This document shows positions 5,037 through 28,002 of a stretch of 64,000 nucleotides of DNA, piece after piece (the first letter of the stretch is position 1; each line of letters starts with the position of its first letter). The stretch is from Mycobacteriales bacterium (GTDB lineage Bacteria; Actinomycetota; Actinomycetes; DATLTS01). The stretch lies in assembly GCA_035533475.1 (NCBI GenBank), contig DATLTS010000014.1:1-64000 (forward strand). Reading direction: 5' to 3'. A program made the translations under genes and the position numbers. Below the pieces are notes generated by a model that saw nothing but the letters and a program-made list of their open reading frames with translations, had not been told where the DNA came from and did not search any database.

Positions 5037-5053
5037 CTGGCTACCGTCGTTGG

Positions 5054-6930: not shown

Positions 6931-6955
6931 GGTCGTGTTCCTGGTCCTGCCGGTC

Positions 6956-6994
6956 GTCGTCCTGTTAACCATATTTCAGCAAGGACATATTTCG
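6956..6994 (+). repeat. 39-bp direct repeat, left copy flanking the catabolic island
   Basis: Matches 26641-26679 in the same orientation at 34 of 39 positions. The last 16 bases, GCAAGGACATATTTCG, are identical. On the minus strand each copy contains two GAAAYATG-like units. The two copies enclose the complete gene block 7396-26375, so they may be relics of an integration event or of a shared mobile element. Confidence 0.7.
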
Positions 6995-10314: not shown

Positions 10315-11213
10315 GGGTTTGCGGTGGGGAGGAGGTCGGCGGGGGGCAGCAGATCCTCGAGGGTCAACGGGGTGACCAGCCGGGGTGGGAGGACCCGGTC
10401 GAGCTCGTCGAGGGTCCATTCCCGTTCGGTGGTCAGGTCGGCGGTGATGGCGGGGACCTGCAGGATGAGGATGCGCCGGCCGTGCACCTGGAACACCTGC
10501 CCGGTCGCGGGGCAGTCCGCGCCGGCCAACCAGGCCACGAGGGGGGAGACGCGGTGCGCCTCCAGCCCGGCGGTCGGGGTCGCGCTGCTGCCGTCCATCC
10601 GGGTCACCGCCGCCGGGGCGATGACGTTCGAGCGGACCCCGTAGCGGCCGGCTTCCAGCCGGATCGTCGCGGACAGGGCGAGCACGGCCAGCTTCGCCGC
10701 GCCGTAGTTCGCCTGCCCGACGTTGCCGACCAGGCCGGACGCGCTGGAGGTGTGGATCACCGAGGCGCGCACCGGCCGGCCGGCTCGGGACTGCTCCCGC
10801 CAGTAGGCGACGGCGTGGCGGCTGGGCGCGGCGTGGCCCTTGAGGTGGACCGCGATCACCCGGTCCCAGTCCGGTTCGCTCATGTTCGCCAGGGTCCGGT
10901 CCCGCAGGTTCCCGGCGTTGTTGACCAGCACGTCCAGACCACCGAAGGTGTCGACGGCCAGCCGGACCAGCTCGGCCGCGGCCGCCCAGTCGCAGACGTC
11001 GTGACCGGAGGCGACCGCGGACCCGCCGCCGACGCGGATCTCGTCGACCACGGACTGGGCGGGGGTCGGGTCGGCGCCGTCCCCGGACACCTCGGCGCCG
11101 AGGTCGTTGACGACTACCGCCGCGCCGTGACCGGCGAGGGCCAGCGCGTGCGCCCGGCCCAGTCCGCGTCCGGCGCCGGTGACGATCGCGACGCGTCCGC
11201 TCAGCCTGGGCAT
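10311..11213 (-). CDS. Short-chain dehydrogenase/reductase
   Basis: 300 aa. N-terminal Rossmann motif TGAGRGLG (about 12-19), NNAG, catalytic Ser in IHTSSASG, and YGAAK (Tyr-x-x-x-Lys). Insertions such as NDLGAEVSGDGAD and YWREQ match the SDR branch related to the dehydrogenase part of peroxisomal multifunctional enzyme 2, which oxidises 3-hydroxyacyl-CoA. The last about 60 residues lack the hydratase or SCP2 domains of those enzymes. The ATG lies inside the end of the FAD-oxidase gene (13-nt overlap) and its stop overlaps the kinase-aminotransferase gene. Confidence 0.85.
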   Translation of the reverse strand: MPRLSGRVAIVTGAGRGLGRAHALALAGHGAAVVVNDLGAEVSGDGADPTPAQSVVDEIRVGGGSAVASGHDVCDWAAAAELVRLAVDTFGGLDVLVNNAGNLRDRTLANMSEPDWDRVIAVHLKGHAAPSRHAVAYWREQSRAGRPVRASVIHTSSASGLVGNVGQANYGAAKLAVLALSATIRLEAGRYGVRSNVIAPAAVTRMDGSSATPTAGLEAHRVSPLVAWLAGADCPATGQVFQVHGRRILILQVPAITADLTTEREWTLDELDRVLPPRLVTPLTLEDLLPPADLLPTANP

Positions 11214-12646
11214 CGCACACCGTCGTTGTCGGTGCCGGCGTCGACCGCGATGTCGGTGTTGGCATCGGTGGGTGGGGTGGCCGGGTCGAAGATGGCGCCC
11301 GGGTTGAGGATGCCGGCCGGGTCGAACGCCGCCTTGATCTGCCGGTGCAGGCCCAGCGCGGCCGGACCCAGTTCGTCGGCGAGCCAGCGGCGTTTGAGCC
11401 GGCCGATGCCGTGCTCCCCCGACACGGTGCCACCCAGCTCGCGGGCGGCCGCGACGATCGCGTCGGCCGCGTCCCAGGCCCGGCGTTCCCCGTCCTCGCC
11501 GGGCGGGACCACCAGCAGGGGATGCGCGTTGCCGTCCCCGGCGTGAGCCACCACGGCGACGGTGAGACCGCTGGTCGCGGCGATGCGTTGGACCGCGGCG
11601 ATCAGCGGGGGCAGCTGCGTGCAGGGCACCGCGACGTCTTCGACCAGGACCCGGCCGAGGGTCTGCAGCGCCGGGTAGGCGGCCCGCCGGATGTCGAGGA
11701 GTGCCTCGGCTTCGGCCCGGTCCCGGGTGAGGTGCAGCTGCCCGGCGCCCTGGCCGGTCAGCGCCATCTGCAACCGGGAGTCCGCGCCCGGCGCGTCGTC
11801 GAGCTGGACCAGCAGCACCGCGCCGACGTCCGGGCCGAAGCCGGTCCCCCGCAGCCGGTCCAGCGCAGCCACGGTGGTGGCGTCCATCAGCTCGAGCAGG
11901 GTCGGCATCCCGGCGTCGCCGGCGACGCCGGCAGCCGCGGCGGCGGCGGCCGTCAAGGAGGCGAAGGTCGCCAGCGCGGTGACCTGCGGCCCGGGCAGCG
12001 CCTGCAGCCGGACGGTGGCCGCGACGATCACCGCCAGGGTTCCCTCGGAGCCGATGAGCAGCTGGGTCAGGTCGTAGCCGGCAGAGCGTTTCACCGTCGC
12101 CCCGCCGGTCTGCATAGCCTGCCCGTCGGCGAGGACGACCTGCAGGCCGAGGACGGCGGCGCGGGTCGCGCCGTAGCGGAGGCAGCGCAGCCCGCCGGCG
12201 TTGGTGGCGATGTTGCCGCCGATCGTGCAGTTGGCCCAGCTGGACGGGTCGGGGGCGAACATCAGCCGGTGCGGGGCGGCTGCGGCGTTCAGCGTGGCGT
12301 TGATCACCCCCGCTTCGACGGTGGCGGTCCGGTTCGGGGCGTCGATGTCGCGGACCGCGGTGAGCCGTTCGGTGCTGAGCACCAGGCACCCGGGCAGCGC
12401 GTTCGCCCCGCCGGACAGTCCCGTCCCGGCCCCGCGGGTCACCACCGGGACCCGGTGGCGGCGCGCCCAGCGCAGGCTGTGCTGGACCTCGGCGAGGCTG
12501 GCCGGCGCGACCACCGCGGCCGGCCGGGCCGCGGCCACCAGGTTGGCCTGGTCGGTGCGGTAGCCGGCGGTCAGGTCCGGGTCGTCGCGGACCGCCCCCG
12601 GATGCAGCGCGTCGCGCAGCTCCGTCAGCTCCGCCCGGGTGATCAC
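11201..12646 (-). CDS. FAD-linked oxidase, GlcD/D-lactate dehydrogenase type
   Basis: 481 aa. PCMH-type FAD domain with VVTRGAGTGLSGGANA (about 67-82), WANCTIGGNIATNAGGLRCLRYG and the SEGTLAVI signature. The C-terminal FAD-oxidase domain has AHAGDGNAHP and GTVSGEHGIG followed by LKRRWL, characteristic of GlcD/DLD enzymes that oxidise 2-hydroxy acids to 2-oxo acids. Start GTG at 12646 forms a GTGA overlap with the upstream beta-lactamase-fold gene. No glcE or glcF partner is present. In this operon it probably oxidises a hydroxy acid released from the substrate. Confidence 0.9.
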   Translation of the reverse strand: MITRAELTELRDALHPGAVRDDPDLTAGYRTDQANLVAAARPAAVVAPASLAEVQHSLRWARRHRVPVVTRGAGTGLSGGANALPGCLVLSTERLTAVRDIDAPNRTATVEAGVINATLNAAAAPHRLMFAPDPSSWANCTIGGNIATNAGGLRCLRYGATRAAVLGLQVVLADGQAMQTGGATVKRSAGYDLTQLLIGSEGTLAVIVAATVRLQALPGPQVTALATFASLTAAAAAAAGVAGDAGMPTLLELMDATTVAALDRLRGTGFGPDVGAVLLVQLDDAPGADSRLQMALTGQGAGQLHLTRDRAEAEALLDIRRAAYPALQTLGRVLVEDVAVPCTQLPPLIAAVQRIAATSGLTVAVVAHAGDGNAHPLLVVPPGEDGERRAWDAADAIVAAARELGGTVSGEHGIGRLKRRWLADELGPAALGLHRQIKAAFDPAGILNPGAIFDPATPPTDANTDIAVDAGTDNDGVRCPG

Positions 12647-14253
12647 GGGTGGTCGCCGTTGCCGGTGTCCACCCGGTGCAGCCGCAGGTTGGCCAGCCGG
12701 GCCATGCTCAACCGCAGCCCGCTCACCACCCCGTCGGTCCGGTCGAAAACGACCGCGAACTGCACCGGGGTCACCGGGTCTCCCCAGCTGCCGGTGAACC
12801 CGTCGCGGGCGGCGGGCTCCAACGGCATCGGGGTCAGCTTGCGCCGGTGCAGCACCAGCGTGGCGTCGGTGCTCCGCACGGTGTAGTCGACGTCGAGCTC
12901 GGGGCTGCGGTAGCGGCCGGCGAGCTCGGCCAGCTCGGCGGGGGCGGGTTCCCGGCGGTGGATCCGGGTCAGCCGGCGCGGGCCCTGCGACACCACGGTG
13001 AGGGTGAGCGAGCCGGCCGGGGAGGTGGCGGCGTCGAAGCGCAGTTCGGCCGGGCCGTGGCGGAACCGGTCCGCGCCGGTCGGTTCCAGCGGGCCGACGC
13101 CGCGCAGGGTCAGGGTGCCGGCGTCTGCGGTGAGGTCCAGGCATTCGCCGGTGTCCGAGTCGGCGTAGGTGCCGACGTAGGCGCCGACGGGTCTAACCGT
13201 CGCGGGTGGCGTCGAGTCGGGCGGCGCGCCGATGACTAGGTCGGCGAGCCGCTCGCACAGCTTCGCGGGGTCCGCCGTGGCCAGGTTGGACAGGGCGGCG
13301 ATGCTCAGCCCGAGCTCGGGCAGGCTGACCAGCTGGGCGCGGAACCCGGCGTCGGATCCGCCGTGGCCGAACCGGCGATGCCCGCGGTACTCGTCGAGGA
13401 TCAGCCCGAACGCGTACCCGGTGGGGGTGGCATCGGTGAGCACCCCGCTGGTGTGCGCGAGGTCGCGCACCCGGGGCCCGCCGACGCGGGCGTGCCGGTG
13501 GTTCGCCGCCCAGCGCAGCAGGTCACCGGCGGTGCTGAGCAGGCTGGTCGCGCCGACGGTGGCGTAGTTCAGCGGGCAGCGTTGGTAGCCGGAGCCGGAG
13601 GCGGCGGGCAGATAGGAGGACGACCGATGCGCGACCACCCGCCGGTGATCGTCGCAGAACTGGGTGCTGTGCATCCCGAGCGGCTCGAACAGCTCCCGCC
13701 GGCAGAAGGCGGGGAACTCCAGCCCGCTCACCGTGGTGACGAGCTCGGCGAGCAGCGTGTACCCGGTGTTCGAGTACAGGTACCGGCTGCCCGGCGGGAA
13801 GTTCAGCTCACGTTGGGTGTGCACCAGGTCGAGGATGTCGGCGCGGGTGATCACGTCCTCGATGCGCCAGCCGGCGGCGAGCGCCAGCATCCACTGATCC
13901 CGCAGACCGCTCGTGTGGTGGACCAGCTGGCGGACCGTGACCCCGTCGGCGCACTCGGGCATCCGCGGCAGGTAGTCGCGGATGCCCGCGTCCAGGTCCA
14001 GCGCCCCGCGCTCGGCGAGCAGCGCGACTGCGAAGGCGGTGACCTGCTTGGACACCGAGGCCACGTGAAAGACGGTGTCGGCGGTGATCGGTGTCCGGTG
14101 CTCGAGGTCGGCTAGCCCGCGGCCGCGGGAGTACACGACCTCGTCCCCGCAGCTGATGGCGAGCTGGATCCCCGGCCCGTCGGCGTCGCACACGGCGCGC
14201 AGCACCTCGTCGGCGGCGAGCGGGTCGAACCCGCCGGTCACGGTGACGGTCAC
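12643..14253 (-). CDS. Serine hydrolase, beta-lactamase/S12 fold (first copy)
   Basis: 536 aa. Active-site SxxK is S66-V-S-K69, the second motif is Y160-S-N162, and the third is HGG in RRFGHGGSDAG. The catalytic domain ends about residue 345 and is followed by two beta-rich repeats seen in S12 family members. No signal peptide, so it is probably cytoplasmic, which argues against penicillin resistance. Family members include DD-peptidases, esterases, D-aminopeptidases and the 6-aminohexanoate-oligomer hydrolase NylB. Amide or ester cleavage of the pathway substrate is likely. GTG start and GTGA junctions on both sides. Confidence 0.88.
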   Translation of the reverse strand: MTVTVTGGFDPLAADEVLRAVCDADGPGIQLAISCGDEVVYSRGRGLADLEHRTPITADTVFHVASVSKQVTAFAVALLAERGALDLDAGIRDYLPRMPECADGVTVRQLVHHTSGLRDQWMLALAAGWRIEDVITRADILDLVHTQRELNFPPGSRYLYSNTGYTLLAELVTTVSGLEFPAFCRRELFEPLGMHSTQFCDDHRRVVAHRSSSYLPAASGSGYQRCPLNYATVGATSLLSTAGDLLRWAANHRHARVGGPRVRDLAHTSGVLTDATPTGYAFGLILDEYRGHRRFGHGGSDAGFRAQLVSLPELGLSIAALSNLATADPAKLCERLADLVIGAPPDSTPPATVRPVGAYVGTYADSDTGECLDLTADAGTLTLRGVGPLEPTGADRFRHGPAELRFDAATSPAGSLTLTVVSQGPRRLTRIHRREPAPAELAELAGRYRSPELDVDYTVRSTDATLVLHRRKLTPMPLEPAARDGFTGSWGDPVTPVQFAVVFDRTDGVVSGLRLSMARLANLRLHRVDTGNGDHP

Positions 14254-15098
14254 GGGTGGCCGGCGAGGCGCCGCGCCTGCTCGATCAGCCGGGTCCGGGC
14301 GTCGCCGGCATGGAGGTGCGGCGGCGGGTCGGCACCGGCGCCGCGCATCTCGAACGGGCCGGCCGGCCAGCGGAAGCAGTCTTTGACCAGCGCGTCGACC
14401 TGCGCGGCGGTGGCGATCCCGTCGCTGACGATGCGGTCGGCTTCGGCCCAGACGGCGAGCATGATCCGGTTGGGGACGAACCCCCAGTGCGTCGCGTCGT
14501 CCCGGACGACTTGCGGGTTCTTGCCGCAGCGGCGGGCCAACCCGACGACGGTGTCGACGGCGGCGGGGTCGCAGGTGTCGTGCACGACGATCTCGGCCAG
14601 CCGCATGACCGGCGCCGGGGACGCCCAGTGCCAGCCCAGCACCAGCTGCGGTCGGTCGGTCGCGGCGGCCAGCGCGGCGACCGGGAACCCGGAGCTGTTG
14701 CTGGCCAGGATCGCGGTCGGCGGGGTCGCGGCGTCCAGCGCCCGGAACACCGCGATCTTCGCGGCGAGGTTCTCGGTGACCGCCTCGATCACCAGCTCGG
14801 TGTCGGCGCAGGCGGCGGCGAACTGCGCGACCGGGCGGATCGCGGCAAGCGCGGCCGCCGCCTGCTCGGCGCCGATCACACCGCGATCCGCGGCGGCCCG
14901 CATCCCGTACCGGCCGTGCTCGATGCGGTGCAGCGCGGCGGTCGCCGCGGTGTCGTCCCGGTCGTGCAGGCGAACCCGGCAGCCGGCGAGGGCGAGGACC
15001 TGGGCGATGCCGGCGCCCATCTGTCCGGCGCCGAGGACGAGCACCTCGCCGAGCGCGGGCCGGTCCGGCTGGCCGGGCGCAGCCGCTTCGGGGGTCAC
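14250..15098 (-). CDS. 3-hydroxyacyl-CoA dehydrogenase family protein
   Basis: 282 aa from GTG 15098. N-terminal NAD-binding motif VLVLGAGQMGAGIAQ (about 16-30), then the catalytic-region pattern ASNSSGFPV and GWHWASPAPVM, in which His corresponds to the catalytic His of the family. The C-terminal helical domain has FVPNRIM. Single-domain length is as in 3-hydroxybutyryl-CoA or carnitine dehydrogenases. In an operon with an acyl-CoA ligase and an SDR it probably oxidises a 3-hydroxyacyl-CoA or related hydroxy acid. The start is fixed by the GTGA overlap with the upstream gene; a longer frame to 15137 is less likely. Confidence 0.85.
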   Translation of the reverse strand: MTPEAAAPGQPDRPALGEVLVLGAGQMGAGIAQVLALAGCRVRLHDRDDTAATAALHRIEHGRYGMRAAADRGVIGAEQAAAALAAIRPVAQFAAACADTELVIEAVTENLAAKIAVFRALDAATPPTAILASNSSGFPVAALAAATDRPQLVLGWHWASPAPVMRLAEIVVHDTCDPAAVDTVVGLARRCGKNPQVVRDDATHWGFVPNRIMLAVWAEADRIVSDGIATAAQVDALVKDCFRWPAGPFEMRGAGADPPPHLHAGDARTRLIEQARRLAGHP

Positions 15099-16453
15099 GG
15101 TGCTCGCACGTGCAGCCGGCCCAGGATCCGCAGCCATCTCACCTTCCCGGCCGGGTCGCGGAGGAACTCGCCACGGGCCCCGGCGAGCGGACCGCCGGCG
15201 ATCCGCAGGGTGTCTCCGCCGGTCAGCTCGGCCGGATGGGGCTCGACCGGCTGCGCATCGGGGAACGACGCCAGCTGAACGTCGGTCGGCTGGTAGTCGA
15301 TCAGCAGGCTACCGGCTGGCCCGGCCTGCACGTGCACGGTCTGCAGCCGGGCACGGTAGGCACCGCCGACCTGCGCGGGGGCGATGGAGGGAGCCGGTGG
15401 CGCGGCGGGCCGCGACGCCGGCATCCGGGCGAGCTGCCGCAGCGCCCACTTCACGATCGGGGTGTGCACGAGCGCGCCGAGCTGACCGTTGGTGCACACC
15501 GCGATTGCAAAGCCGCGGTCGGGCACCAGAGCGAAGGAGGACATCTGCCCGTTCGTCTCGCCGCCGTGGGCGAGCAGGCCGGGGGTCGGTTGGAGCAGCC
15601 AGGACAGCCCGCAGGCGGTGGCCCGCCCGCCGCCGGCGGGGACCAGCGGGGACTGCATCAGTCGCAGCGAGTCCGGGCTCAGCAGCCGAGGTCCCGTGCC
15701 GAGGTGGAACCGGGCGTAGCGGAGCTGGTCCACCAGCGAGGAGGCCAACCCGCCGGCGGGCGCCGTTGCCCGGGTCAGCTCCCACGGCCGGGTGACGAGC
15801 GGGGTGCCGTCGCGCACCCGATGCCCGACCGCGGTTCGGCGGGTGATGGCGTCGGCCGCGGAAAAGCAGGAGTCGGCCATCCCGAGCGGGTCGAGGACCA
15901 GCTCCTGGCAGGCCTGCTCGAACGGGGCGCCGGTGACGGTCTCGATCGCCCGTCCGGCGATGGTGAACCCGGCGTTGCTGTAATTCCAGACCGTGCGCAG
16001 CGGCGCCAGTTGGGGGAGCACCCCCATCGAGGCGCAGGCCCGGGACAGCGCGTCGTCTGCGGAGCCGAAGTCGTCGAGCAGGTCCCCGTCGTGGCCGCCC
16101 ATGTGGGTGAGCAGGTCCCGCATGGTGATCCGCTCCAGGGCGTCGCGGTCGGCCAGGTCGAGCTCGGGGACGTAGCGGTGGACCGGGGCGTCGAGTTCGA
16201 GCTGGCCCCGCTCGACCAGCCGCATCACCACGGTCGCGGTCAGCGTCTTGGTGGTGGAGCCGATCTGGAACAAGGTGGCGTCGTCGACGCGGACCGGGGC
16301 GTCGACGTGGGTCACCCCGGCGGTGACGACGATCTGCGCGTCGCCGTTGAGGATCCCGACCGCAACGCCGGGCACCGCATGCGCGGCCATCCCGGCGTCC
16401 AGCAGGTCCCGAAGCTGCGCCGCGACGTCGGTGCCGGATGCGGTCGCGGTCAT
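15095..16453 (-). CDS. Serine hydrolase, beta-lactamase/S12 fold (second copy)
   Basis: 452 aa. SxxK is S66-T-T-K69, second motif Y158-S-N160, third motif HGG in LLAHGGETNGQ. A C-terminal beta-rich domain (about 350-452) follows. No signal peptide. It differs strongly from the S12 protein encoded two genes later, so it is not a recent duplicate. The two probably act on different bonds or oligomer lengths. The ATG at 16453 forms an ATGA overlap with the ligase gene; the stop overlaps the dehydrogenase start. Confidence 0.88.
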   Translation of the reverse strand: MTATASGTDVAAQLRDLLDAGMAAHAVPGVAVGILNGDAQIVVTAGVTHVDAPVRVDDATLFQIGSTTKTLTATVVMRLVERGQLELDAPVHRYVPELDLADRDALERITMRDLLTHMGGHDGDLLDDFGSADDALSRACASMGVLPQLAPLRTVWNYSNAGFTIAGRAIETVTGAPFEQACQELVLDPLGMADSCFSAADAITRRTAVGHRVRDGTPLVTRPWELTRATAPAGGLASSLVDQLRYARFHLGTGPRLLSPDSLRLMQSPLVPAGGGRATACGLSWLLQPTPGLLAHGGETNGQMSSFALVPDRGFAIAVCTNGQLGALVHTPIVKWALRQLARMPASRPAAPPAPSIAPAQVGGAYRARLQTVHVQAGPAGSLLIDYQPTDVQLASFPDAQPVEPHPAELTGGDTLRIAGGPLAGARGEFLRDPAGKVRWLRILGRLHVRAP

Positions 16454-17925
16454 CCGGCGGCCGCGGGGACCCGGGCGCTCACCAACGCCGCCCGCCGCAG
16501 CTTCCCGCCGTCGTCGCGGGGCAACGCGGCGACGAACTCGTAGCTGCGCGGCAGCTTGTAGGGGGCCAGGCGTGCCCGGCAGTGTGCGGTCAGCTGGCCG
16601 ACGGTGGGCTCGTCGGCGCCGGCCGCGAGTTGGATGACCGCGTGCACCCGCTGGCCCCACTCCTCGTCGGGCAGCCCGATCACCGCCGCGTCGCGGACCT
16701 GCGGGTGGTCGGCCAGGGCGGCCTCCACCTCGGCCGGGTAGACGTTCACCCCGCCGCTGACCACCAGGTCGACGCGCCGGTCGGCCAGGTGCAGAAATCC
16801 GTCCGGGTCGAGCCAGCCCAGGTCGCCGACGCTGCCGAACCCGTCGGGGGTGCGCAGCGGGTCCGCGCCGAGGTATTCCGCCGGGCGCAGCTCGTGCGGG
16901 CGCATGTAGATCTCGCCGACCTCGCCGGGCGGCAGCGCCGCGCCGGTGGCGTCGAGCACCCGGATGTCGCAGTGGTAGCCGCGGCCGACGCTGCCCGGAT
17001 GGCGCAGCCACTCGTCCCCGCGGATCACCGTGTTGCCGTACCCCTCGCTCGCGCCGTACGCCTCGAGGACCCGGGTGGCGCCGATCAGCTCGATCCAGTC
17101 CCGTTTCACCGCCGCCGGGCACGGCCCGGCCGAATGCACGATCTCGCGCAAGCTGCTCAGGTCGCGGTCGCGGATCCCGTCGAGGGCGGCGATGCGACGC
17201 ATCATGGTCGGCACGAACCCCACCGTGGTGACCCGGTGGCGTTCGATGGCGTCGACCGCCAGCCCGGCATCGAAGCGTTCCAGCAGCACCACCGTGTGAC
17301 CCAGCATCAGCCCGTAGTAGCACCAGTCGAAACCGAAGTTGTGGTAAAGCGGACCGGGCAGCAACTGTACGTCGCCGGCGGCGAGCCCGAATCCACGGAG
17401 CACGTCGGCAAGCTCGGCGGTCAGCCCCCACGGCCCGTCGTTCACCAGGAGTTTGGGCCGGCCGGTGGAACCACCGGTCCCGATCGCCTTGCCCGGGTCG
17501 GCCACGACGTCGGGCAGGGCAGGGACCGCGCGGGCGCTGTCGCTCAGCTGCGCGCCGGTGACGGTCCCCGGCAGGTCCGGCCAGTGCGCGACGACGACCT
17601 CTGGGTCGAACAGGGCGAGATGCCCGTCGCGTTCGGGCGGTGGAGCGGCGGGGTCGAGCGGCAGCACGCAGCCGCCGAGCTTCCACACCGCGCTGCAGGC
17701 CAGCACGTGCTCCGCCCCGTTGGGTAGACCCACCGCCACCCGGGATCGGGGTGCGACCCCAAGCCGGGCCAGGCCGGCGGCCATGACGTCGCTGGTCGCG
17801 TCCAGCTCGGCGCGGGACAGGGTGCGTTCGGTCCCGTCGGGGGCGACGGTCACCACGGCGGGCTCGTCCGGCCCAGCTAGGGCGGCGGCCCGCAGGATGG
17901 CGGCATAGGAGCGCAGGGGGGGCAT
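16450..17925 (-). CDS. AMP-forming acyl-CoA synthetase/ligase
   Basis: 491 aa. The P-loop-like motif is GTGGSTGRPK (about 150-159), followed by YGASEGYGN, GDLGWLDPDGFLHLADRRVD and the C-terminal hinge VSGGVNVYPAEVE. A C-terminal Lys in DDGGKLRRAAL would contact the acyl-adenylate. It activates a carboxylic acid with ATP and CoA; acid specificity cannot be read from the sequence. The ATG lies 7 nt after the amidase stop. It provides the thioester that the 3-hydroxyacyl-CoA dehydrogenase and SDR of the same operon would use. Confidence 0.9.
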   Translation of the reverse strand: MPPLRSYAAILRAAALAGPDEPAVVTVAPDGTERTLSRAELDATSDVMAAGLARLGVAPRSRVAVGLPNGAEHVLACSAVWKLGGCVLPLDPAAPPPERDGHLALFDPEVVVAHWPDLPGTVTGAQLSDSARAVPALPDVVADPGKAIGTGGSTGRPKLLVNDGPWGLTAELADVLRGFGLAAGDVQLLPGPLYHNFGFDWCYYGLMLGHTVVLLERFDAGLAVDAIERHRVTTVGFVPTMMRRIAALDGIRDRDLSSLREIVHSAGPCPAAVKRDWIELIGATRVLEAYGASEGYGNTVIRGDEWLRHPGSVGRGYHCDIRVLDATGAALPPGEVGEIYMRPHELRPAEYLGADPLRTPDGFGSVGDLGWLDPDGFLHLADRRVDLVVSGGVNVYPAEVEAALADHPQVRDAAVIGLPDEEWGQRVHAVIQLAAGADEPTVGQLTAHCRARLAPYKLPRSYEFVAALPRDDGGKLRRAALVSARVPAAAG

Positions 17926-17932
17926 CGGATCC

Positions 17933-19339
17933 TCAGCGGTGGGTGGCGGGCAGTTCGCGTTCGAGTTGTCCGGCCAAGCGGAAGAGGGTGGCCTCGTCGG
18001 CGACGCGTCCGACGAGTTGGACGGCCATCGGCAGTCGACTGTCCGCCCCGAACCCGACCGGCAGCGAGATCGCCGGCTGTCCGGTCCAGTTCCACATCGT
18101 GGTGAATGGCACGTAGCTCTCCCAGGTGGCGAACAGTTCAGCCACCGGGAGCTCACGATGCGCGCCGATCAGCGGCGGCGTCTTGGCGACGGTAGGGGTG
18201 AGCAGCACGTCGACGTCGCCGAACGCCTCGGCGGCCCGGCGGGCCCGGGTGAGCAGCTCGGCGGTGGCCGCGGCGTAGTCGTCCGCGCTGACCGGCGCCT
18301 CCCTGCTGGCCGCGCCCAGCAACGGGTCCAGCGGCGCGTCGACCGTCAGGGTCGCCAGGGCCTGGCGGACCGTGGCCCCGAGCAGGGGATGCAGGTACGG
18401 GGAGATCATCATGTCCCAGTGCGGCTCCGGTTCGCGGGCGCTCACCCGGTGGCCGAGCCGGGGGAGCAACCCGATGACGCGATCCAGTCCGGCGGCGACG
18501 TCGGGATCGAGCGGGGTGCGGCCGACCGCTACCCCCACGGTGAGCCGGCTCGGGGCCGTGCTGGCCTCCAACCGGAACGGCCGGTCGGGGAGTGGGACTG
18601 CGAACGCGTCGCCGGGCGTCGGCCCGGACATGGCGTCGAGCAGCGCGGCGGCGTCGGTGACGGTGCGGGCCAACGGACCGGAGGTCGCCGTGAGGCTGCT
18701 TGCCGCGGGGGCGGCGGAGACCCGCCCGCGGGTCGGTTTGACGCCGACCACTCCGCACCAGGCGGCGGGAATCCGGATCGACCCCCCGCCGTCGGTGCCG
18801 TGCGCGGCGGCGCACAGCCCCGCCGCGACCGCCGCCGCCGCGCCCCCCGAAGATCCGCCGGCGCTTCGGGTCCGATCCCACGGGTTGCGCGCCGCGGGCA
18901 GCCCCGCGGGTTCGCTGACGCAGCCCAGACCGAGGGCGGGGGTGGTGGTCTTCCCGAGCAGCAGCAGCCCGGCCCGGTGCAGCGCGGTGACGACGTGGTC
19001 GTCGCGTTCGGGCAGGTCGTCGCGTAGGCCGGCGATGCCCAGGGTGGTCCGTAACCCGGCGGTGCGGGTGAGGTCTTTGACGGAGAGCGTGACACCGCGC
19101 AACGGGGCGGTGTCCGTGGCCGGATGGCTGGCCGCCGCGGCCGCGGCGGCGCGGACCCGGTCGGCGTCGACGGTGACGTAGGCGCCGAGGTCGGGATCGA
19201 GCGCGGCCGTTCGCTCCAGGTAAATCTCCACCAGTTCGGCCGGCGTCAACTCGCCCCTGCGGATCAGGTCCGCCTGCTCCAACGCGGGCAGGAACGCCAG
19301 CGGATCGCGGACCCGCACGGTGGGGAGGGTCGCGGTCAC
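17933..19339 (-). CDS. Amidase-signature hydrolase (operon copy)
   Basis: 468 aa. Catalytic Lys88 in LSVKDLT, the AGGSSGG loop at 160-166 with the cis-Ser, and nucleophile Ser187 in GTDGGGSIRIPA give the complete Ser-cisSer-Lys triad. The GTG at 19339 overlaps the stop of the binding-protein gene as GTGA. The frame continues 81 codons upstream inside that gene and is not used. The family includes glutamyl-tRNA amidotransferase A, fatty-acid amide hydrolase, aryl-acylamidases and the nylon cyclic-dimer hydrolase NylA. Here it probably opens an amide bond of the imported substrate. Confidence 0.9.
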   Translation of the reverse strand: MTATLPTVRVRDPLAFLPALEQADLIRRGELTPAELVEIYLERTAALDPDLGAYVTVDADRVRAAAAAAASHPATDTAPLRGVTLSVKDLTRTAGLRTTLGIAGLRDDLPERDDHVVTALHRAGLLLLGKTTTPALGLGCVSEPAGLPAARNPWDRTRSAGGSSGGAAAAVAAGLCAAAHGTDGGGSIRIPAAWCGVVGVKPTRGRVSAAPAASSLTATSGPLARTVTDAAALLDAMSGPTPGDAFAVPLPDRPFRLEASTAPSRLTVGVAVGRTPLDPDVAAGLDRVIGLLPRLGHRVSAREPEPHWDMMISPYLHPLLGATVRQALATLTVDAPLDPLLGAASREAPVSADDYAAATAELLTRARRAAEAFGDVDVLLTPTVAKTPPLIGAHRELPVAELFATWESYVPFTTMWNWTGQPAISLPVGFGADSRLPMAVQLVGRVADEATLFRLAGQLERELPATHR

Positions 19340-20895
19340 GAGGCGGGCGGGTCGAACGAGGGCCGCGTCGGTCCGGTGTAGACGAAGCAGCCGCAGCCCG
19401 TGTCGTACAGCGAGGGACGGTAGGCACCGGCGCCGTCCGGACGGCCCCGTTGGAAGAAGGTGCCGAACGTCAGCGCGGACGGGAAGGACCGGCCCAGGGC
19501 GTACACGCGGTCGGCCAGCACGGCGGGGCTCACGGTAGTGGCGCCGCGCAGCGCCTGCTGCAGGAAGAACATCGGGTCGCACAGCTGCGCCTCGTACATT
19601 TGCACCGTGCGGTTGGAGGTGTCCTGCCCGGCGTTGCGCATCAGCTGCAGGCAGCGGGTCTCGTTGGCGCTGACCGGTCCCGGATCGTGGGCCTGGTCCA
19701 CGTCGTTGATGGGTTGCCAGCCGATCGACGCCGCGCCCGGAAGCTGGTCTTTGGGGGCAATCGTCTGCATGGTCGACGGGGAGAAAGTCGAGGACAGCGC
19801 GTAGCGGGGGTAGTAGCGCTGGCTGTCCGCCTGCTGCATGAAGAAAATCGGGTTGGTTAGGTTCAGGATGTTCGTCACCCCGGCCTGGCGGAACTTCAGC
19901 ACGATCCCCGGGATATCGTTGATCCCGCCGGCCCCGGTGCCGGTGCCGCCTTGCGCGGTCACCTTCAGGCCACGGGCGCTGAGCATCGGGATGATCACGT
20001 GCGCGATCAGGTCACGGGCCTGGCTAGTGTCGACGTAGAACACGCCGATTTTCGTGGTCGGGTTCAGCCAGTTCATCGCAGCCAGCCCGCCGATGTAGGT
20101 GGCCATGCCGCGTTCCGCGAGGAAGTTGCTCGGCTGGTAGAAGTACGGGCCCAGCTTGCGGTACTCGGCGGAGGTGATGCCGCTGGCATCGTCAACGAAA
20201 ACCGTGTTGTGCTGGGCCAGACAGTAATAGAACCCCGGGGAACCCGCCTGTTCCGCGTCGAGGTAGCTGACGACGGCGAACACCTTGTTGTCCTGGGTGA
20301 AGTAGGCGCAGGCTGCCTGGAACTGCGGGTCGGGGTTGGACAGGTACTGGCTGGTGTCGATCCCGTAGTACAGCGGGACGATGCGGCGCCCGGCGATACC
20401 GCCCCCGCGGTTCAACGCGTCCACGATCGCCTGTGCCTGCGCGTGCGGGTCGCCGGTGCTCACCCCGCTGACCCCGATAGCCGTCAGCTCCTCGGTGTGC
20501 GTCGGGTAGATGAAACCGATCGCGATGCTCGCCGCCTTGACCGAACCCTGCGGTGCGCTCGTGGCGACCCCGGCACCGGTGGGCCCGGACCCTGCGACCG
20601 TGCGACCAGTGGATCCGCCGGGCCCGCCGGCCGTCCCACTTCCCTGCGCCCCGGCTCCGACGGCGCCAGCGGCGGTTCCCGGAACCGTGCCCGCGGCGGC
20701 GTCCGACCCCGGTGCGGCCGAGCCGGTGCCCAGTCCGCCCTGACCGGTCGGGTTCGCGCCGCCCGGCCCGGTCGGTACGGCGGTGGAGCCGCACCCGGCC
20801 GTCACGCCGACAAGCACCACCGCCGCGGCGAGGGCGAGGCAGCCGCGGACCGTGCGACCGGAGACCGGCCGCTCACGCAACAGCAGATGGAGCAT
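19336..20895 (-). CDS. Solute-binding lipoprotein, periplasmic-binding-protein type I fold
   Basis: 519 aa. Signal peptide GCLALAAAVVLVGVTAGCGS with lipobox VTAGC, then a Gly/Ala/Thr-rich linker of about 90 residues, then a type I binding fold (IAIGFIYPTHTEEL, VDALNRGGGIAGRRI, KIGVFYVDTSQARDLI) as in branched-chain amino-acid or amide-binding ABC components. Start ATG 20895 has a good ribosome site (GGGAGGCGAG). No ABC permease or ATPase is encoded nearby, so it is an orphan binding or sensing protein. First gene of the operon, with the TetR-type operator about 55 nt upstream. Confidence 0.85.
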   Translation of the reverse strand: MLHLLLRERPVSGRTVRGCLALAAAVVLVGVTAGCGSTAVPTGPGGANPTGQGGLGTGSAAPGSDAAAGTVPGTAAGAVGAGAQGSGTAGGPGGSTGRTVAGSGPTGAGVATSAPQGSVKAASIAIGFIYPTHTEELTAIGVSGVSTGDPHAQAQAIVDALNRGGGIAGRRIVPLYYGIDTSQYLSNPDPQFQAACAYFTQDNKVFAVVSYLDAEQAGSPGFYYCLAQHNTVFVDDASGITSAEYRKLGPYFYQPSNFLAERGMATYIGGLAAMNWLNPTTKIGVFYVDTSQARDLIAHVIIPMLSARGLKVTAQGGTGTGAGGINDIPGIVLKFRQAGVTNILNLTNPIFFMQQADSQRYYPRYALSSTFSPSTMQTIAPKDQLPGAASIGWQPINDVDQAHDPGPVSANETRCLQLMRNAGQDTSNRTVQMYEAQLCDPMFFLQQALRGATTVSPAVLADRVYALGRSFPSALTFGTFFQRGRPDGAGAYRPSLYDTGCGCFVYTGPTRPSFDPPAS

Positions 20896-20950
20896 CTCGC
20901 CTCCCGGGCGGCGGACCGCCCGCATTCTGGGTGGGCGGACCGACGGCAAA

Positions 20951-20970
20951 AGTAGACCACATGGTCGACT
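20951..20970. promoter_or_regulatory. Putative TetR operator O1
   Basis: AGTAGACCACATGGTCGACT is a palindrome of 9-base arms with one mismatch around a 2-base centre. It differs at a single central position from the site at 23418-23437. It sits between the divergent solute-binding-protein operon (start 20895) and tetR (start 21014), where one bound dimer could repress both directions. Confidence 0.75.
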
Positions 20971-21013
20971 ACGCGGCAAGGCTCCTGCGCCGGACGGGGG
21001 CTACGCTGCCTCG

Positions 21014-21610
21014 ATGAGTCGCGGAGCGCGCCGGCGGGCGGAGCTGCTGTCCGCGGTCGTCGCGCACCTGCTCGAGTTCGGCATGGCCGGCTTCTCGCTG
21101 CGGGTCGCCGCGTCCGCCGCCGGCACCAGCCACAGCATGCTGCTCTACCACTTCGGCAGCCAGGAGGCGCTGCTGCGCGAGGCGCTGCACGCGATCCGGG
21201 AGCGGCGGCTGGACGACCTGCGCGCGTTGGCCCGACGCAAGCCCAGGGACATGTCGGCGATGCTGCGGCTGCTAGGTCGGGAAACGCCCGAGCTGCGGGT
21301 GCTGCGTCAATCCTTCGGGCTGGCCCAGATCGATCCGGACCGGTACGGCGGGATCGCCGTGGACGCCGTGCACGACGACCTCGCGGTCACCGAGGAGTTG
21401 CTCGCCCGACTGGTCGGGGACCGCCAGCTCCCGCCCGGAACCGCGACGCTGGTCGCGGCCGCGTTGCGCGGCCTGGTCTTCGACGGGCTCGTCACCGGCG
21501 ACCGGGCGCGGGTCACGCTCGCCGTGCGCGTGCTGGAAAGCCTCGTCGCTGCGGGCGGGCCAGACGAGGCCGGCTCACGCTCGGACGCCGGTGGCGTGGC
21601 CGTGATCTGA
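21014..21610 (+). CDS. TetR-family transcriptional regulator
   Basis: 198 aa from ATG 21014. N-terminal HTH: GFSLRVAASAAGTSHSMLLYHFGSQEALL (about 23-51), with the LLYHFGS recognition helix typical of TetR proteins. The ligand domain is diverged. Divergent from the nine-gene operon, with operator O1 about 45 nt upstream. A near-identical operator lies in the next divergent promoter region at 23.4 kb, so it likely controls both units and its own gene. Its last 98 bases overlap the 3' end of the convergent beta-propeller-like gene. Confidence 0.9.
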   Translation: MSRGARRRAELLSAVVAHLLEFGMAGFSLRVAASAAGTSHSMLLYHFGSQEALLREALHAIRERRLDDLRALARRKPRDMSAMLRLLGRETPELRVLRQSFGLAQIDPDRYGGIAVDAVHDDLAVTEELLARLVGDRQLPPGTATLVAAALRGLVFDGLVTGDRARVTLAVRVLESLVAAGGPDEAGSRSDAGGVAVI

Positions 21611-23381
21611 CGCACGGCCCGGCGGCTCCGACGAAACCCAGGCCACCGAGGGTGAGCGGCAGCGTCATCCCGAGGTCGTCGCCCGCCGGCTGCTGGTCGA
21701 GGCCGCCAGCCCGGACGAACGCGACGTCCCAGTTTGGCGCGGCCCGCCCGAAGGCCTGACCGTTCACAGTGAAAATGCCGTAGAAGCTGTCTCGTTGCGC
21801 GGTCAGCTGTTGGTAATCCCCGAGCGGGCGCTGCCCGGCGTCGTTCGGGTTCTCCTTCTCCACCGACCGGAAGCGGGTGAGGACGGTGTCGGAGAAGCTC
21901 TGCCCGCCGTCGCCGGTGCGCGCCAGGTGCACGCTGATCAGCGGGTAGCCGGCCGGGTCGAAGCCGTCGAAGGCGTCGTAGAGCACGCCGACCGTCCCGT
22001 CGTCGGTGACCGCTACCCCGGGCAGCGCTGCCTGCACCTGCCCCGTCACGAAGTGCTGCGGGCCGACGGTGAGCCCGAGCGGTCCCCCCACCCGCACCCG
22101 GCGCATCGCCAGTCGGTTCATCTCGGTCGTCGGATCGATGGCCCCGTAGACGTAGTACAGGTCGCCGGTTCTCGGGTCGACTCCCGCGGCGTGCGTCCCC
22201 CCGTACAGGCCGTTGATCGTGGCGAACTTGTCGGAGGTTTGCGAACTGAACGCGGTGTCCACCACGTACCCGCCCGGGTGGGTGCTGGCGAGCCAGCTGC
22301 GACCGCCGTCGAGGGACACGTCGACGTGGTACTGGACCAACGCCGAGGTGCCCATCTGCGTGTCGAACTGCGCGCCGTACGGTCGGGGGAAGAGGCCGAT
22401 CGCCTTGGACACCCCCCACAGCGCGTAGAGCGGGCCCGGCTGGCGATCCGCCGCGAGCCGGATGGCGGGATAGCTGACGTTGCTCAGTGGCGCGGTCGTC
22501 TGCGGGTCCGGTCGCGGCAGGTCGGTGCAACAGGCCGGAGTCGACCACAGCTGGTGGTGCGCGGTGAAATTCAGCGGCGCGCTGCCGTAGGAGGTCGCCA
22601 CGAACAGCGACAACCTCGGGTCCAGATCCTGATAGAACTTGCCGTCGTCCTCGTAGGCGATGTAGACGTTGTCCCGGCTGGGGTTCAGCGGGTCCGGCGC
22701 GACCGCGATCTGTGGCTGGTCCACCGTGCCGAACGGTTCGCCGATGGGTTGACCCACCGGGTTGGCCACCGGTCCGACGCTGGGCGGCAGGAACTCGTCG
22801 TGGCGGGCTACCGCCTGGACCGAGCCGTCGACGTTGGTTGGGTAGGTCCACGAGCCCGGCTGGGTGGGGTCGGTCGCGCTGGCCGCGTAGATCGCCTTGT
22901 CGAAGGTCAGGAACGCCCCGATCAGGTGGCCCGTCCGGTCGTATGCGAGCACCCGGTCGTTGGTGTTCGCCCCGAAGGTCGCCCCCGGCGGGAGCGGCAC
23001 GCTGTAGGTCTTGGTCCACAGTGTGCCGTCGTTGCCCGACGTCCACACCGACCCGTGCGTCTGCAGGGCACCGAGGGGGCATTGCACCGGATCGGGAGCG
23101 CAGCCGTTGGGCATCCACTCCTCCGGCTGAAAGGGTCCGACGTGCCCGCTGAAGGCCGCCACCCGACCGGGCTGGGACGGGTCCACCGCGATCGCCGGTT
23201 CACTGTCGATGACCTGATCGGTGGCGGCCAACTGATGGTCGGTGTTCGCGACGACGAGGTCGGTCACCAACGGTCGGGGGTCGGCGCTGGCGCTCCCCAG
23301 GCTCAGCGTCAGGACAGCGGCGAGGCCAAGGCCCGCCGCCGCCCAGCGTGCCGCCGTTCCCTCGGTGCCGCTTCGGCTCAC
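21513..23381 (-). CDS. Secreted beta-propeller-like (sialidase/BNR-type) protein
   Basis: 622 aa from GTG 23381. Signal peptide RWAAAGLGLAAVLTLSLGSASA with likely cleavage after ASA. The mature chain has repeated Asp-box-like turns (SLDGGRSWLAS, TGDGGQSFSDT, SGNDGTLWTK) and regularly spaced beta strands, as in exo-alpha-sialidase-like or BNR-repeat proteins. No catalytic Arg triad of true sialidases was recognised, so an extracellular binding or scaffold role is equally possible. The last about 33 residues are arginine-rich and read antisense to tetR. The promoter region holds operator O2. Confidence 0.75.
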   Translation of the reverse strand: MSRSGTEGTAARWAAAGLGLAAVLTLSLGSASADPRPLVTDLVVANTDHQLAATDQVIDSEPAIAVDPSQPGRVAAFSGHVGPFQPEEWMPNGCAPDPVQCPLGALQTHGSVWTSGNDGTLWTKTYSVPLPPGATFGANTNDRVLAYDRTGHLIGAFLTFDKAIYAASATDPTQPGSWTYPTNVDGSVQAVARHDEFLPPSVGPVANPVGQPIGEPFGTVDQPQIAVAPDPLNPSRDNVYIAYEDDGKFYQDLDPRLSLFVATSYGSAPLNFTAHHQLWSTPACCTDLPRPDPQTTAPLSNVSYPAIRLAADRQPGPLYALWGVSKAIGLFPRPYGAQFDTQMGTSALVQYHVDVSLDGGRSWLASTHPGGYVVDTAFSSQTSDKFATINGLYGGTHAAGVDPRTGDLYYVYGAIDPTTEMNRLAMRRVRVGGPLGLTVGPQHFVTGQVQAALPGVAVTDDGTVGVLYDAFDGFDPAGYPLISVHLARTGDGGQSFSDTVLTRFRSVEKENPNDAGQRPLGDYQQLTAQRDSFYGIFTVNGQAFGRAAPNWDVAFVRAGGLDQQPAGDDLGMTLPLTLGGLGFVGAAGPCVRSRPRHRRPSVSRPRLARPQRRGFPARARRA

Positions 23382-23417
23382 CCTGCGCCCTCCTCGGGAC
23401 TACCGCGGCCGGCGTGG

Positions 23418-23437
23418 AGTAGACCAGATGGTCGACT
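23418..23437. promoter_or_regulatory. Putative TetR operator O2
   Basis: AGTAGACCAGATGGTCGACT equals the site at 20951-20970 except for one base in the centre. It lies between the divergent beta-propeller gene (start 23381) and the amidase/M81 pair (start 23476). No third copy was noticed in the window. Confidence 0.75.
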
Positions 23438-23475
23438 ACAGTGTCAAGGACGCGACGTTTTACGGTGAGGCGGCC

Positions 23476-24897
23476 ATGCGGGCGGACGAGTACGTGCGGC
23501 ACGACGGCGTGGGACTGGCCGACCTGGTGCGGTCCGGTCAGGTCAGTCCGGTCGAGCTGCAGCAGGCCGCGCAGAGCGTGCTCGACGCCGTCAACGGCCG
23601 GATCAACGCCGTCGTCACCGGGGATCTGCACGTCAGTCCCGGCCCGTCCGGTGCACCCGACGAGGCCGCATTCAGCGGGGTGCCGCTACTGGCCAAGGAC
23701 AACCACCCATGTGCGGGGCTGCCGGCCCGGCACGGTTCGGCGTTCCGATCGGCGACCCCCGAAGCGGGCGACCATCCCGTGGTCGGGCGGCTGCGGGCCG
23801 CCGGCGCGAACCCGGTGGGGATGACCAACATGCCCGAGGCCGGGCTGTTGGCGACGACGCAGCCGGCGCTGTACGGCGCCTGCCGCAACCCGTGGGACCT
23901 CGGCCGTACTGCCGGCGGCTCCTCGGGGGGTTCGGCGGCCGCGGTGATCGCCGGCATCGCCCCGATCGCGACCGGCAGCGACGGGGGCGGCTCGATCCGG
24001 ATCCCGGCCAGCGCCTGCGGGGTCTTCGGTCTCAAGCCCAGCCGTGGCCGTACCCCCGGCATCGGTTGGGGTGGTCTCGTGGTCAACCATGTGCTCACCC
24101 GATCCGTCCGCGACAGTGCGGTGGCGCTGGACCTGCTCAGCCGGGCCGGCCCGGACGCGCCGAACCTCGTCTCCGCACCGTCGCGTCCCTTCGCCACGGC
24201 GGTCACCGCCGAGCCGGGCCGGCTGCGGATCGCCTTCTCCGTCGCTCCCCCCGACGGTTTCGAATTGCACTGCGACGTCGTCGCGGCCGTCCGCCATGCC
24301 GCCCAGCTGCTGGAATCCCTTGGCCACGACGTCGCCGAAGACCATCTCGATGTGACGGCCGGGCCGTTGGCCGCGGTGACCGAACGGCTCGAGGACCTGG
24401 TACCAGTTGCGACCGCGGCGCGGGTGCAGACCTGGGCGGAGGAGAGCGGCAGCGAGCTCACCGAGACCGGCGTGGAGCCGCTGACCTGGCGCTACATCGA
24501 GCGGGGCCGTGCGGTCAGTGGTCCGGCGTTCGCCGTACTGCTGGACGCGCTGCCGCGCTTCGCCGAAGCTGCGGCGCCGTTCTTCGCCCGCTACGATCTG
24601 TGGCTGCTGCCCACCACAGCGGAGCCCCCGCCACCCCTGGACTGCTGGAACTTCGCGGCGCCCACCCTGGACGATGCGCTCACCCGGATGACCCGCTACG
24701 TGCCGGGGTTCGTGACCTCGCTGGCAAACATCACCGGCCAGCCGGCCGCGTCGGTGCCATTCACCGCCTCTGCCGAGGGCCTGCCGGTCGGTGTTCAACT
24801 GGTGGCCCGCCACTACCGCGAGGACCTGCTGCTCGGCGTGGCCGGGCAGATCGAGCGCGCCCGGCCCTGGCCGGTGCGCGCCCCGGTGACCCCGTGA
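23476..24897 (+). CDS. Amidase-signature hydrolase (second copy)
   Basis: 473 aa from ATG 23476, preceded by GGTGAGGCGG. Catalytic Lys74 in LLAKDN, AGGSSGGS at 146-153 and nucleophile Ser173 in GSDGGGSIRIPA. Same family as the operon amidase but clearly divergent, so a different substrate preference is likely. The in-frame stretch from 23242 to 23475 contains operator O2 and is not coding. The TGA overlaps the GTG of the M81 gene. Together the two genes form the rightward arm of the putative TetR regulon. Confidence 0.9.
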   Translation: MRADEYVRHDGVGLADLVRSGQVSPVELQQAAQSVLDAVNGRINAVVTGDLHVSPGPSGAPDEAAFSGVPLLAKDNHPCAGLPARHGSAFRSATPEAGDHPVVGRLRAAGANPVGMTNMPEAGLLATTQPALYGACRNPWDLGRTAGGSSGGSAAAVIAGIAPIATGSDGGGSIRIPASACGVFGLKPSRGRTPGIGWGGLVVNHVLTRSVRDSAVALDLLSRAGPDAPNLVSAPSRPFATAVTAEPGRLRIAFSVAPPDGFELHCDVVAAVRHAAQLLESLGHDVAEDHLDVTAGPLAAVTERLEDLVPVATAARVQTWAEESGSELTETGVEPLTWRYIERGRAVSGPAFAVLLDALPRFAEAAAPFFARYDLWLLPTTAEPPPPLDCWNFAAPTLDDALTRMTRYVPGFVTSLANITGQPAASVPFTASAEGLPVGVQLVARHYREDLLLGVAGQIERARPWPVRAPVTP

Positions 24898-26375
24898 GCC
24901 TGCGGATCGCGATCGGGGGCATCGCCCACGAGACCAACAGCTACGCCGCCGTGCCCACCACCCTGGGCGACTTCGAGGTGCGCCGGGGCGAGCAGATCCG
25001 GCTGGCCGCGGGAACGAGAACCTACGAGGGCGGGATGGTCGATGCCGCGGCCGAGCTCGGTGCCGAGGTAATCGGGACGCTGCTCGCCGAGGCCCTCCCC
25101 GGCGGTGTGATCGCCGCCGAGGCCTACCGCAGCCTCCGGCGGGAGCTGCTCGCGCTCGTCGCGGCGGCGCTGCCGGTGGACGCGGTCGTGCTCGTCCTGC
25201 ACGGCGCCGCGATCAGCCAGGATTGCGCCGACGTCGAGGGCGAGCTGTGCGCCGCCGTTCGTGCCGTGATCGGGCCGGCCACGCAGCTCGTCGTCACGCA
25301 TGATTTGCACGGGCACATCACCGCCCGGGAAGCGGACGCGGTCGATCTGATGTTCGGTGTGCAGCGCTACCCGCACGACGACATGTATGACCGCGGCCGC
25401 GAGGCCGTGCTCGCTATCCCCCGACTGACCAGCGGCGAGTGGCGCCCAGCGATCGCCGTCGAACGACTGCCGCTGCTGGTCGCCCCCACCACCACTGACA
25501 GCGGCGTCGGCCGGGACCTCTTGGCGCTGTGCCTGCAGGCCGAGCGTGAGCCCGGAGTCATCGACGCCACGTTCATGCACGGCTTCCCGCACACCGACAG
25601 CCCGCACGTCGGCGCCCAGGTCATCGTCACGACCGACGCAGCCCCGGAGCAGGCGCGCGCGACGGCGCGGGCCCTCGCCGCCGAAGTGTGGGCGCGACGC
25701 GAGGGCTTTCAGCACAGCTATCCCGATCCTGCTCAGGCGATCGGCCAGGCGATGGTCCTGGCGCTGGGCGCCCCCGGCGGTCCGGTCGTCGTCAACGAGA
25801 CGTCGGACAATCCCGGCGGCGGGGCGCCGGGCGACGGCACCTACCTGCTCCGCGCCCTGATCGAGGCCCGACCGGCCGGCGCCGTCTTCTGCGGGCTGTG
25901 CGACCCGGCCGCCGCCGCGCAGGCGCACCGAGCCGGAGTCGGGGCCACCCTGCGGATGGAGCTGGGCGGGCACACCGACGACCGGCACGGACCGCCGCTG
26001 CGGGGCACCGCCCGCGTGGCCACGCTGAGCGACGGCGAGATCGTGCTGGAGGCCGCGATGGGGGCCGGGGTCCGGGTGCAGCTGGGACGCACCGCGGGGC
26101 TCCTCGTCGAGGGCGTAGACGTCATCGTGATCAGCCGCCCCATGCAGACCATCGATCGGACACCGTTGCTGCTGCACGGCATCGACCCGGCGACCCGCCC
26201 GATCGTCGCGGTGAAATCGGCGCACCACTTCCGGTCCGGTTTCCGGGAGCTGGCCGCCGCCGTCATCACCAGCGACTCCCCGGGTATCACCACCCACCGA
26301 CTGGCCAGCCTGCCCCGGATGCATGCCCCCGGCCCGCTGTTCCCGCTGGACCCCGCGGCCGCCTACCCGGCGTGA
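24894..26375 (+). CDS. M81-family metallopeptidase, MlrC-like
   Basis: 493 aa from GTG 24894 (GTGA overlap with the amidase). The N-terminal DUF1485 domain begins RIAIGGIAHETNSYA and has VLHGAAI and THDLHGHITARE, with putative metal ligands; the C-terminal MlrC domain has NETSDNPGGGAPGDGT and KSAHHFRSGF. MlrC acts on the small linear products of the cyclic peptide microcystin, and many relatives have unknown substrates. In this context it fits as a peptidase or amidohydrolase for an oligomeric amide. Confidence 0.9.
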   Translation: MSLRIAIGGIAHETNSYAAVPTTLGDFEVRRGEQIRLAAGTRTYEGGMVDAAAELGAEVIGTLLAEALPGGVIAAEAYRSLRRELLALVAAALPVDAVVLVLHGAAISQDCADVEGELCAAVRAVIGPATQLVVTHDLHGHITAREADAVDLMFGVQRYPHDDMYDRGREAVLAIPRLTSGEWRPAIAVERLPLLVAPTTTDSGVGRDLLALCLQAEREPGVIDATFMHGFPHTDSPHVGAQVIVTTDAAPEQARATARALAAEVWARREGFQHSYPDPAQAIGQAMVLALGAPGGPVVVNETSDNPGGGAPGDGTYLLRALIEARPAGAVFCGLCDPAAAAQAHRAGVGATLRMELGGHTDDRHGPPLRGTARVATLSDGEIVLEAAMGAGVRVQLGRTAGLLVEGVDVIVISRPMQTIDRTPLLLHGIDPATRPIVAVKSAHHFRSGFRELAAAVITSDSPGITTHRLASLPRMHAPGPLFPLDPAAAYPA

Positions 26376-27391
26376 GCCTCGGCTGGGTCGCGGGTCCGGG
26401 CCGGCGCCGTCGCGGGCTCTCGGCACTCCGGCGGGCAGCCCCGGTGTAGCGGATGCAGCCGAAGGAGCACGTCGAGGCGAACGCCGCCGCCTCCGCGGCG
26501 CCCCCAACCGCACGGCGCGCAGGTCCGTCCGGCCTCGGGCGTGCCAAAACTCAGTTCTCAGACGTAGGTGGCGGCGCGACAAGGCACGGTCGGCCAAGAA
26601 CCCTGACCGGCGGAACGCGCAGGACACCAACTTCCCGGGCGTCATCCTCTTAGCCATGTTTCCGCAAGGACATATTTCGGCTCGGCGCTTCGCAGCCTCC
26701 GCGGGCGCGCAGGCTGCATGATCGGCTGGACCGCGCGGGACGCTGGGACAGCCGGTCGTAACGAGTCGGCCGGGCTGCGGCCCGGGCTATCGGCGTGCCG
26801 GCCCCGTCGACATCGGCAGGCGAGATTGACACACTCAAGATCGCGAGGGCCCATCGCCGCGTTAGAGCGCAGCCTCTGCACCGCTGGCTTTGGTGGCAAA
26901 CGCCAAGTAATGACGGCTATGGTCCAGTCGCGAGCCGTCCAAAGTGTCGTTCCGAAGCCGACGCTATTCGACATCCTCACGTTAGGTCAGGGCCGAGCCC
27001 TGGTCTCCTGACTCAGGGCGTGGCGATGCGGGGACCGTGGAGTCAGGCTCGCCATCGTCGTCATCTTCGTGAGGGCCTCGGTGCCGAAGATGCTCAAGGT
27101 GAACGGCCCAATGGGCCACCGCTCCCCGGTCATGTGGCCTTATCAGCTGGAACGGGCACGAGAAGATCAATTACATTCGATCAATCCGCAACGGGTTCGC
27201 CGCACGTCACCGGCGCTACTACCGCCTGCGTCCCGGAGAATTGCCGGGCCGCTCCGCAGCGCGAGAACGTGCCGCTCTGTTCGGGTGGCCTGCGGGCACT
27301 AGGCGCGCAGTGCCGGCGCTATGGGTAACTCCGGCGGCGACCCCACATGCCACCGGTCGCGCCCCTTTGCCTCGGTGGAGCGGTGGGGGGA
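26376..27391. other. Gene-poor stretch after the catabolic island
   Basis: About 1 kb with no supported gene. It holds the right copy of the 39-bp direct repeat and scattered small palindromes such as GGCCCAATGGGCC near 27105. Short reading frames here lack protein-like composition. Confidence 0.5.
26641..26679 (+). repeat. 39-bp direct repeat, right copy flanking the catabolic island
   Basis: Same orientation as 6956-6994, with five mismatches in 39 and an identical 16-base end GCAAGGACATATTTCG. It lies 265 nt after the last gene of the island. Confidence 0.7.
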
Positions 27392-27850: not shown

Positions 27851-28002
27851 GCTTCTATCAAAACACTTGGCCGTGGACACCGCGCACCAATCGGGTCGCA
27901 CCAGCCATTCCGCCCACACGGTCATGCCGCGACGCGGGCGAAACCTGGTCAGTCGCCGGCTATTTGGGTGATCCGACTTTTCGGTTGCTACGGTGCCTGT
28001 CT

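Follow-up and report, generated by a model that had tools for sequence, protein, structure and literature searches.

Two near-identical palindromes in the divergent promoter regions of an amidase gene cluster are probably the operators of the TetR-family protein encoded at 21014-21610, which would act through them on the promoters of the cluster. They lie in the 64,000-nucleotide stretch of DNA from a Mycobacteriales bacterium that was analysed here as a whole, hereafter the window, which comes from contig C14 in a 3.27 Mb genome (68 contigs, 98.7% complete). Judged from sequence, a local TetR regulon with two sites is well supported, because only two such sites exist in the genome, their core and spacing recur in sites of the TetR protein's relatives, and a scan of window proteins (part of the window's open reading frames) showed no further regulator domain. 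An uncharacterised amidase/M81/CoA-ligase cluster thus gains a putative regulator and a putative two-site regulon, with a switch that seems to be of an ordinary, known kind and a docking sequence that appears to have drifted from that of the relatives.

Sequence and setting of the two palindromes

The earlier note had described two matching 20-bp sites that differ by one base, each in a divergent promoter region, and both observations hold (Table 1). The 20-mer common to the sites is AGTAGACCA[C/G]ATGGTCGACT, where the 10th base is the sole difference, and the match continues for 2 bp beyond it (...GACTAC), giving a shared stretch of 22 bp, AGTAGACCA[C/G]ATGGTCGACTAC. Each site is an imperfect palindrome with a 2-nt centre and 8 of 9 half-site pairs complementary, and the mismatched pair, A4/G17, is identical in both. 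Operator 1 is the sole copy in the 118-bp region (20896-21013) between the lipoprotein gene and tetR, which start at ATG 20895 (-) and ATG 21014 (+), while operator 2 is the sole copy in the 94-bp region (23382-23475) between the propeller and amidase genes, which start at GTG 23381 (-) and ATG 23476 (+). Ribosome-binding-like sequences, GGGAGG ahead of ATG 20895 and AGGAGG ahead of GTG 23381, support both of these leftward starts. A short upstream reading frame (MVDY...) also starts in each operator; the two frames continue differently and were taken as chance.

Table 1. Positions of the genes, putative operators and promoter-like elements in the window.
Feature	Position	Strand	Remarks
Rest of leftward putative operon	7396..19426	-	assignments leave out about 8640-10310
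Lipoprotein, putative ABC-type substrate-binding protein	19336..20895	-	lipobox-like VTAGC, read from sequence
Operator 1, putative	20951..20970		AGTAGACCACATGGTCGACT; match with operator 2 runs on to 20972
Leftward operon promoter-like element	20951..20979	-	TTGCCG-17-TCTACT, covers operator 1; weighted scan
tetR weak promoter-like element	20978..21007	+	AAGGCT-18-TACGCT, downstream of operator 1
tetR	21014..21610	+	198 aa; Pfam TetR_N, predicted TetR fold
Secreted protein, beta-propeller of the earlier note	21513..23381	-	Asp-box-like motifs SLDGGRSW, TGDGGQSF
Amidase-M81 weaker promoter-like element	23415..23442	+	TGGAGT-16-TACAGT, operator 2 in spacer; 10% of shuffles
Operator 2, putative	23418..23437		AGTAGACCAGATGGTCGACT; match with operator 1 runs on to 23439
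Propeller promoter-like element	23418..23447	-	TTGACA-18-TCTACT, covers operator 2; weighted scan
Amidase	23476..24897	+	PF01425
M81 / MlrC-like metallopeptidase	24894..26375	+	start overlaps amidase stop

The lipoprotein gene is the first of a putative leftward operon that continues with an amidase, a CoA ligase, a beta-lactamase-fold hydrolase and a 3-hydroxyacyl-CoA dehydrogenase, followed by a second beta-lactamase-fold hydrolase, a GlcD-like FAD oxidase, an SDR and a class-III aminotransferase. Neither the lipoprotein nor the propeller protein has a Pfam or PDB match, and a search of 341 class genomes gave no relative of the latter at E<=1e-20. From its predicted gene content, the cluster may serve to take up and degrade an amide or peptide-like compound. 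The tetR and propeller genes are convergent, with 3′ ends that overlap by 98 bp (21513-21610). Direct repeats bracket the whole amidase/TetR cluster: a 240-bp stretch at 29526-29765 matches 4182-4309 and 5626-5740 (98% and 97%), two pieces that are split by a 1316-bp segment (4310-5625), and it has no further copies in the genome. A 52-bp direct repeat (83% identical; 6950-7001 and 26635-26686) lies just outside both ends of the cluster. Bracketing repeats without another genome copy would fit an acquired island, without being proof of one.

Near-identical pairs of 20-mers are frequent in the window (230, versus 1-23 per simulated window), so the pair by itself is unimpressive, and larger direct repeats do flank the cluster. 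That the two sites arose by chance, or as a duplicated repeat with no regulatory function, is nevertheless highly improbable. They form the only near-identical pair in the window with both members near-palindromic (>=8/10), a combination absent from 12 simulated windows, and in 100 dinucleotide shuffles the site was never matched at <=3 mismatches. Each copy lies within promoter-like elements of a short intergenic region with divergent promoters, the flanks of the two are dissimilar beyond the operator except for a -35-like CCTTG[A/C], and sites of the TetR relatives have the same core.

The whole-genome motif search proposed in the earlier note was run, and it confines the sites to the neighbourhood of tetR rather than spreading them over many unrelated promoters: exact GTMGACCANNTGGTCKAC occurs in two places only, operators 1 and 2, and the single match with one mismatch lies within the ffh coding sequence. 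Within the window, the only other ACCAnnTGGT sites are at 1158 and 9143. A degenerate site pattern was matched in 55 of 395 class genomes, where nearly all matches listed have the form GTCGACCAnnTGGTCGAC; these were rejected as the same site, as the form reads V-D-x-x-V-D and is probably coding, the listed contexts being judged by pattern and not individually. Among the class genomes scanned, GTAGACCAnATGGTCGAC is absent outside the host, and the 394 other genomes held no matching site. Among the relatives covered, which are of the same class at nearest, neither an orthologous cluster nor a close TetR orthologue turned up; the best candidate from a pattern scan, a partial match at 29%, was rejected. 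A literature search on these motifs returned nothing relevant.

The TetR protein and the operator-like sites of its relatives

The product of 21014-21610 is a TetR family member by sequence and by predicted fold. PF00440 is matched at residues 13-57 with a score of 24.4 bits (cut-off 24), the AlphaFold2 model (pLDDT 84) has nine helices in the all-helical TetR layout, and the solved folds closest to the model are all TetR proteins, including EilR with its DNA. The recognition helix comprises residues 40-47, HSMLLYHF, within TSHSMLLYHFGS.

Relatives with the recognition helix TSHRM are about 33-43% identical to the window TetR, and they align with it co-linearly over the full length (30-34% identity in alignment A1). 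At their own locus these relatives have the site TGTACC[A/G]nn[T/C]GGTACA, and their tetR stands next to an SRPBCC (Polyketide_cyc2) gene. All eleven relatives with the helix [TS]SHRM[IL]IYHFGS (L017, L019, L023, L027, L028, L036, L051, L053, L054, L058 and L060, in a group that includes others) have TGTACCAnnTGGTACA in the 200 bp that precede the aligned start; in the same upstream region, none of the relatives with other helix types has ACCAnnTGGT. Further members of the group, from other families and classes, have the same site or TGTACCG variants; one member with the helix TSHRMVIYHF (L062/L160) has the partner gene without such a site. When 15 of these genomes were scanned for the relatives' motif, it occurred once or twice in 13 of them and nowhere but at the tetR locus, and a reversed control pattern gave 0 matches. 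The relatives' sites stand 15-60 bp ahead of tetR; in G003 and G065 the motif is about 430-460 bp upstream of it, and in G003 it precedes the SRPBCC gene that itself precedes tetR.

Helices of other types go with other sites. Relatives with a TSKRM helix carry GTACCGATCGGTAC, and some of those with an SSPRV helix carry ACTGAAACGACTGTTTCAGT; at L056, L151 and L022 (helix SSPRVL) the upstream palindrome is ACTGAAACGACTGTTTCAGT or a close variant. The conserved tetR-SRPBCC pair with TGTACC[AG]nn[TC]GGTACA at its locus recurs in the phylum, in members of several families and several classes (L096, L098, L099, L100, L105, L106, L108, L156-L158 and L161), and a literature search found no description of it.

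The window sites keep the relatives' ACCAnnTGGT core, their ACC-N4-GGT spacing and the 2-nt centre. The outer half-site is TAG/TCG in the window versus TGT in the relatives, the helix is TSHSM and not the group's [TSV]SHRM, and TGTACC[AG]nn[TC]GGTACA is absent from the host genome at <=1 mismatch. The relatives' SRPBCC partner gave no tblastn match in the window. A window Polyketide_cyc2 gene (27392-27925) was considered as the missing partner and rejected as too dissimilar (E 0.006 at best); the ACCAnnTGGT sites at 1158 and 9143 are not upstream of this gene, which also speaks against that reading. In the tree, the window TetR falls outside the TSHRM clade with L154 and L049 (support 100/95, long branches), whose helices are TTHKV and STHKV and whose upstream regions lack the motif.

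Binding by the window TetR is itself a prediction, and the outer bases of the sites are unlike those at the relatives' loci, so that a regulator from a different locus of the genome might bind them and tetR be a bystander. McbR of Corynebacterium, a TetR protein, binds TAGAC-N6-GTCTA, which the window sites resemble. We consider a bystander role of tetR very unlikely, as there are just two sites in the genome, one of them in the 118 bp ahead of tetR, and the core and spacing are common to the sites at the relatives' loci.

With the window TetR as the protein that would bind the sites, the sequences are most simply read as those of an old relative that was taken into a new cluster and whose outer specificity changed. 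Position 41 is at the start of the recognition helix, and we suggest tentatively, as one possibility that may well not hold, that on recruitment to the new catabolic cluster a change from R to S at this position corresponded to a change from TGT to TAG/TCG in the operator, with H40 and the ACCA core kept. The combination of S41 and TAG/TCG occurs in one sequence only, and the link between residue and base is thus hypothetical. If true, it would amount to a small specificity code in one TetR superfamily, whose members here have one or two sites per genome; the candidate correspondence of helix and operator (TSHRM/TGTACCA, TSKRM/GTACCG, TSHSM/TAGACCA) would help to predict the targets of uncharacterised TetR proteins.

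Promoter-like elements and the proposed switch

A strict sigma-70 consensus scan gave no promoter, and a weighted scan was therefore used, with weights set for this analysis. The propeller element scores clearly above shuffles (0.5% of them reach its score) and the score of the leftward operon element, the best on its strand, is reached by 4%, although such scans carry little weight where the genome is rich in GC. In both leftward elements the operator fills the spacer and the -10, and this overlap may account for the broken palindrome pair, as the deviating base gives TCTACT and not TCGACT. The rightward tetR element is the fourth best on its strand and does not exceed shuffles; its -10 ends 6 bp ahead of the ATG (leaderless type), about 31 bp downstream of operator 1, which makes autoregulation less certain than in the relatives.

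Good elements thus occur just leftward, with rightward ones at shuffle level, and it is possible, if on balance doubtful, that TetR binds both sites while controlling the two leftward units only, with tetR and amidase-M81 transcribed from unblocked promoters. However, operator 2 also lies inside the best rightward candidate for amidase-M81, the site of the relatives is just ahead of tetR, and the limited weight of promoter scans at high GC content applies in either direction.

In the model that we prefer, a TetR dimer on each site would overlie the spacer and -10 in both leftward promoters, those of the binding-protein/amidase operon and the propeller gene, and so block RNA polymerase. At operator 2 it would probably also hinder the rightward amidase-M81 promoter, and control of amidase-M81 is plausible from the sequence. 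Autoregulation of tetR is probable, less certainly so than control of the other targets. Release would come from a ligand linked to the substrate of the cluster, perhaps an amide or acyl-CoA product. TetR binding, an effect that is repressive and not activating, and the ligand are all three our inference. A TetR regulator that lies within 200 bp of a divergent gene usually represses it (PMC3511530), and tetR and the lipoprotein gene are 118 bp apart. The points against the model are the different outer half-site, the position in the tree outside the TSHRM clade, and a tetR promoter that is not clearly overlapped. One TetR protein had been proposed to control four transcription units including its own: this is supported in part only, being indicated for the two units with operators inside leftward promoter-like elements, plausible for amidase-M81, and less certain for tetR, whose best -10 lies beyond operator 1.

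Comparison with known systems

The arrangement resembles the TetR/tetA paradigm and the TetR regulators of Streptomyces (PMC3511530) in its divergent tetR and target, the short gap between them and the palindrome within that gap. In contrast to the paradigm, the window has a second, near-identical operator, which belongs to a further pair of divergent promoters at a distance of 2.4 kb, the targets look catabolic rather than concerned with efflux, and the operators are predicted. At the level of the protein, EilR with its eilO operator (PDB 5vl9) is the top PDB sequence match and the best among the listed fold matches (TMq 0.66-0.68); identity is about 20-22%, and the comparison covers the proteins. 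Compared with the TSHRM/SRPBCC group of TetR proteins defined in this analysis, the window system departs in having no SRPBCC partner, a TSHSM helix, a TAG/TCG outer half-site and a position outside the clade, while it shares with the group the ACC-N4-GGT core and its spacing, a count of no more than two sites in a genome and a site beside tetR.
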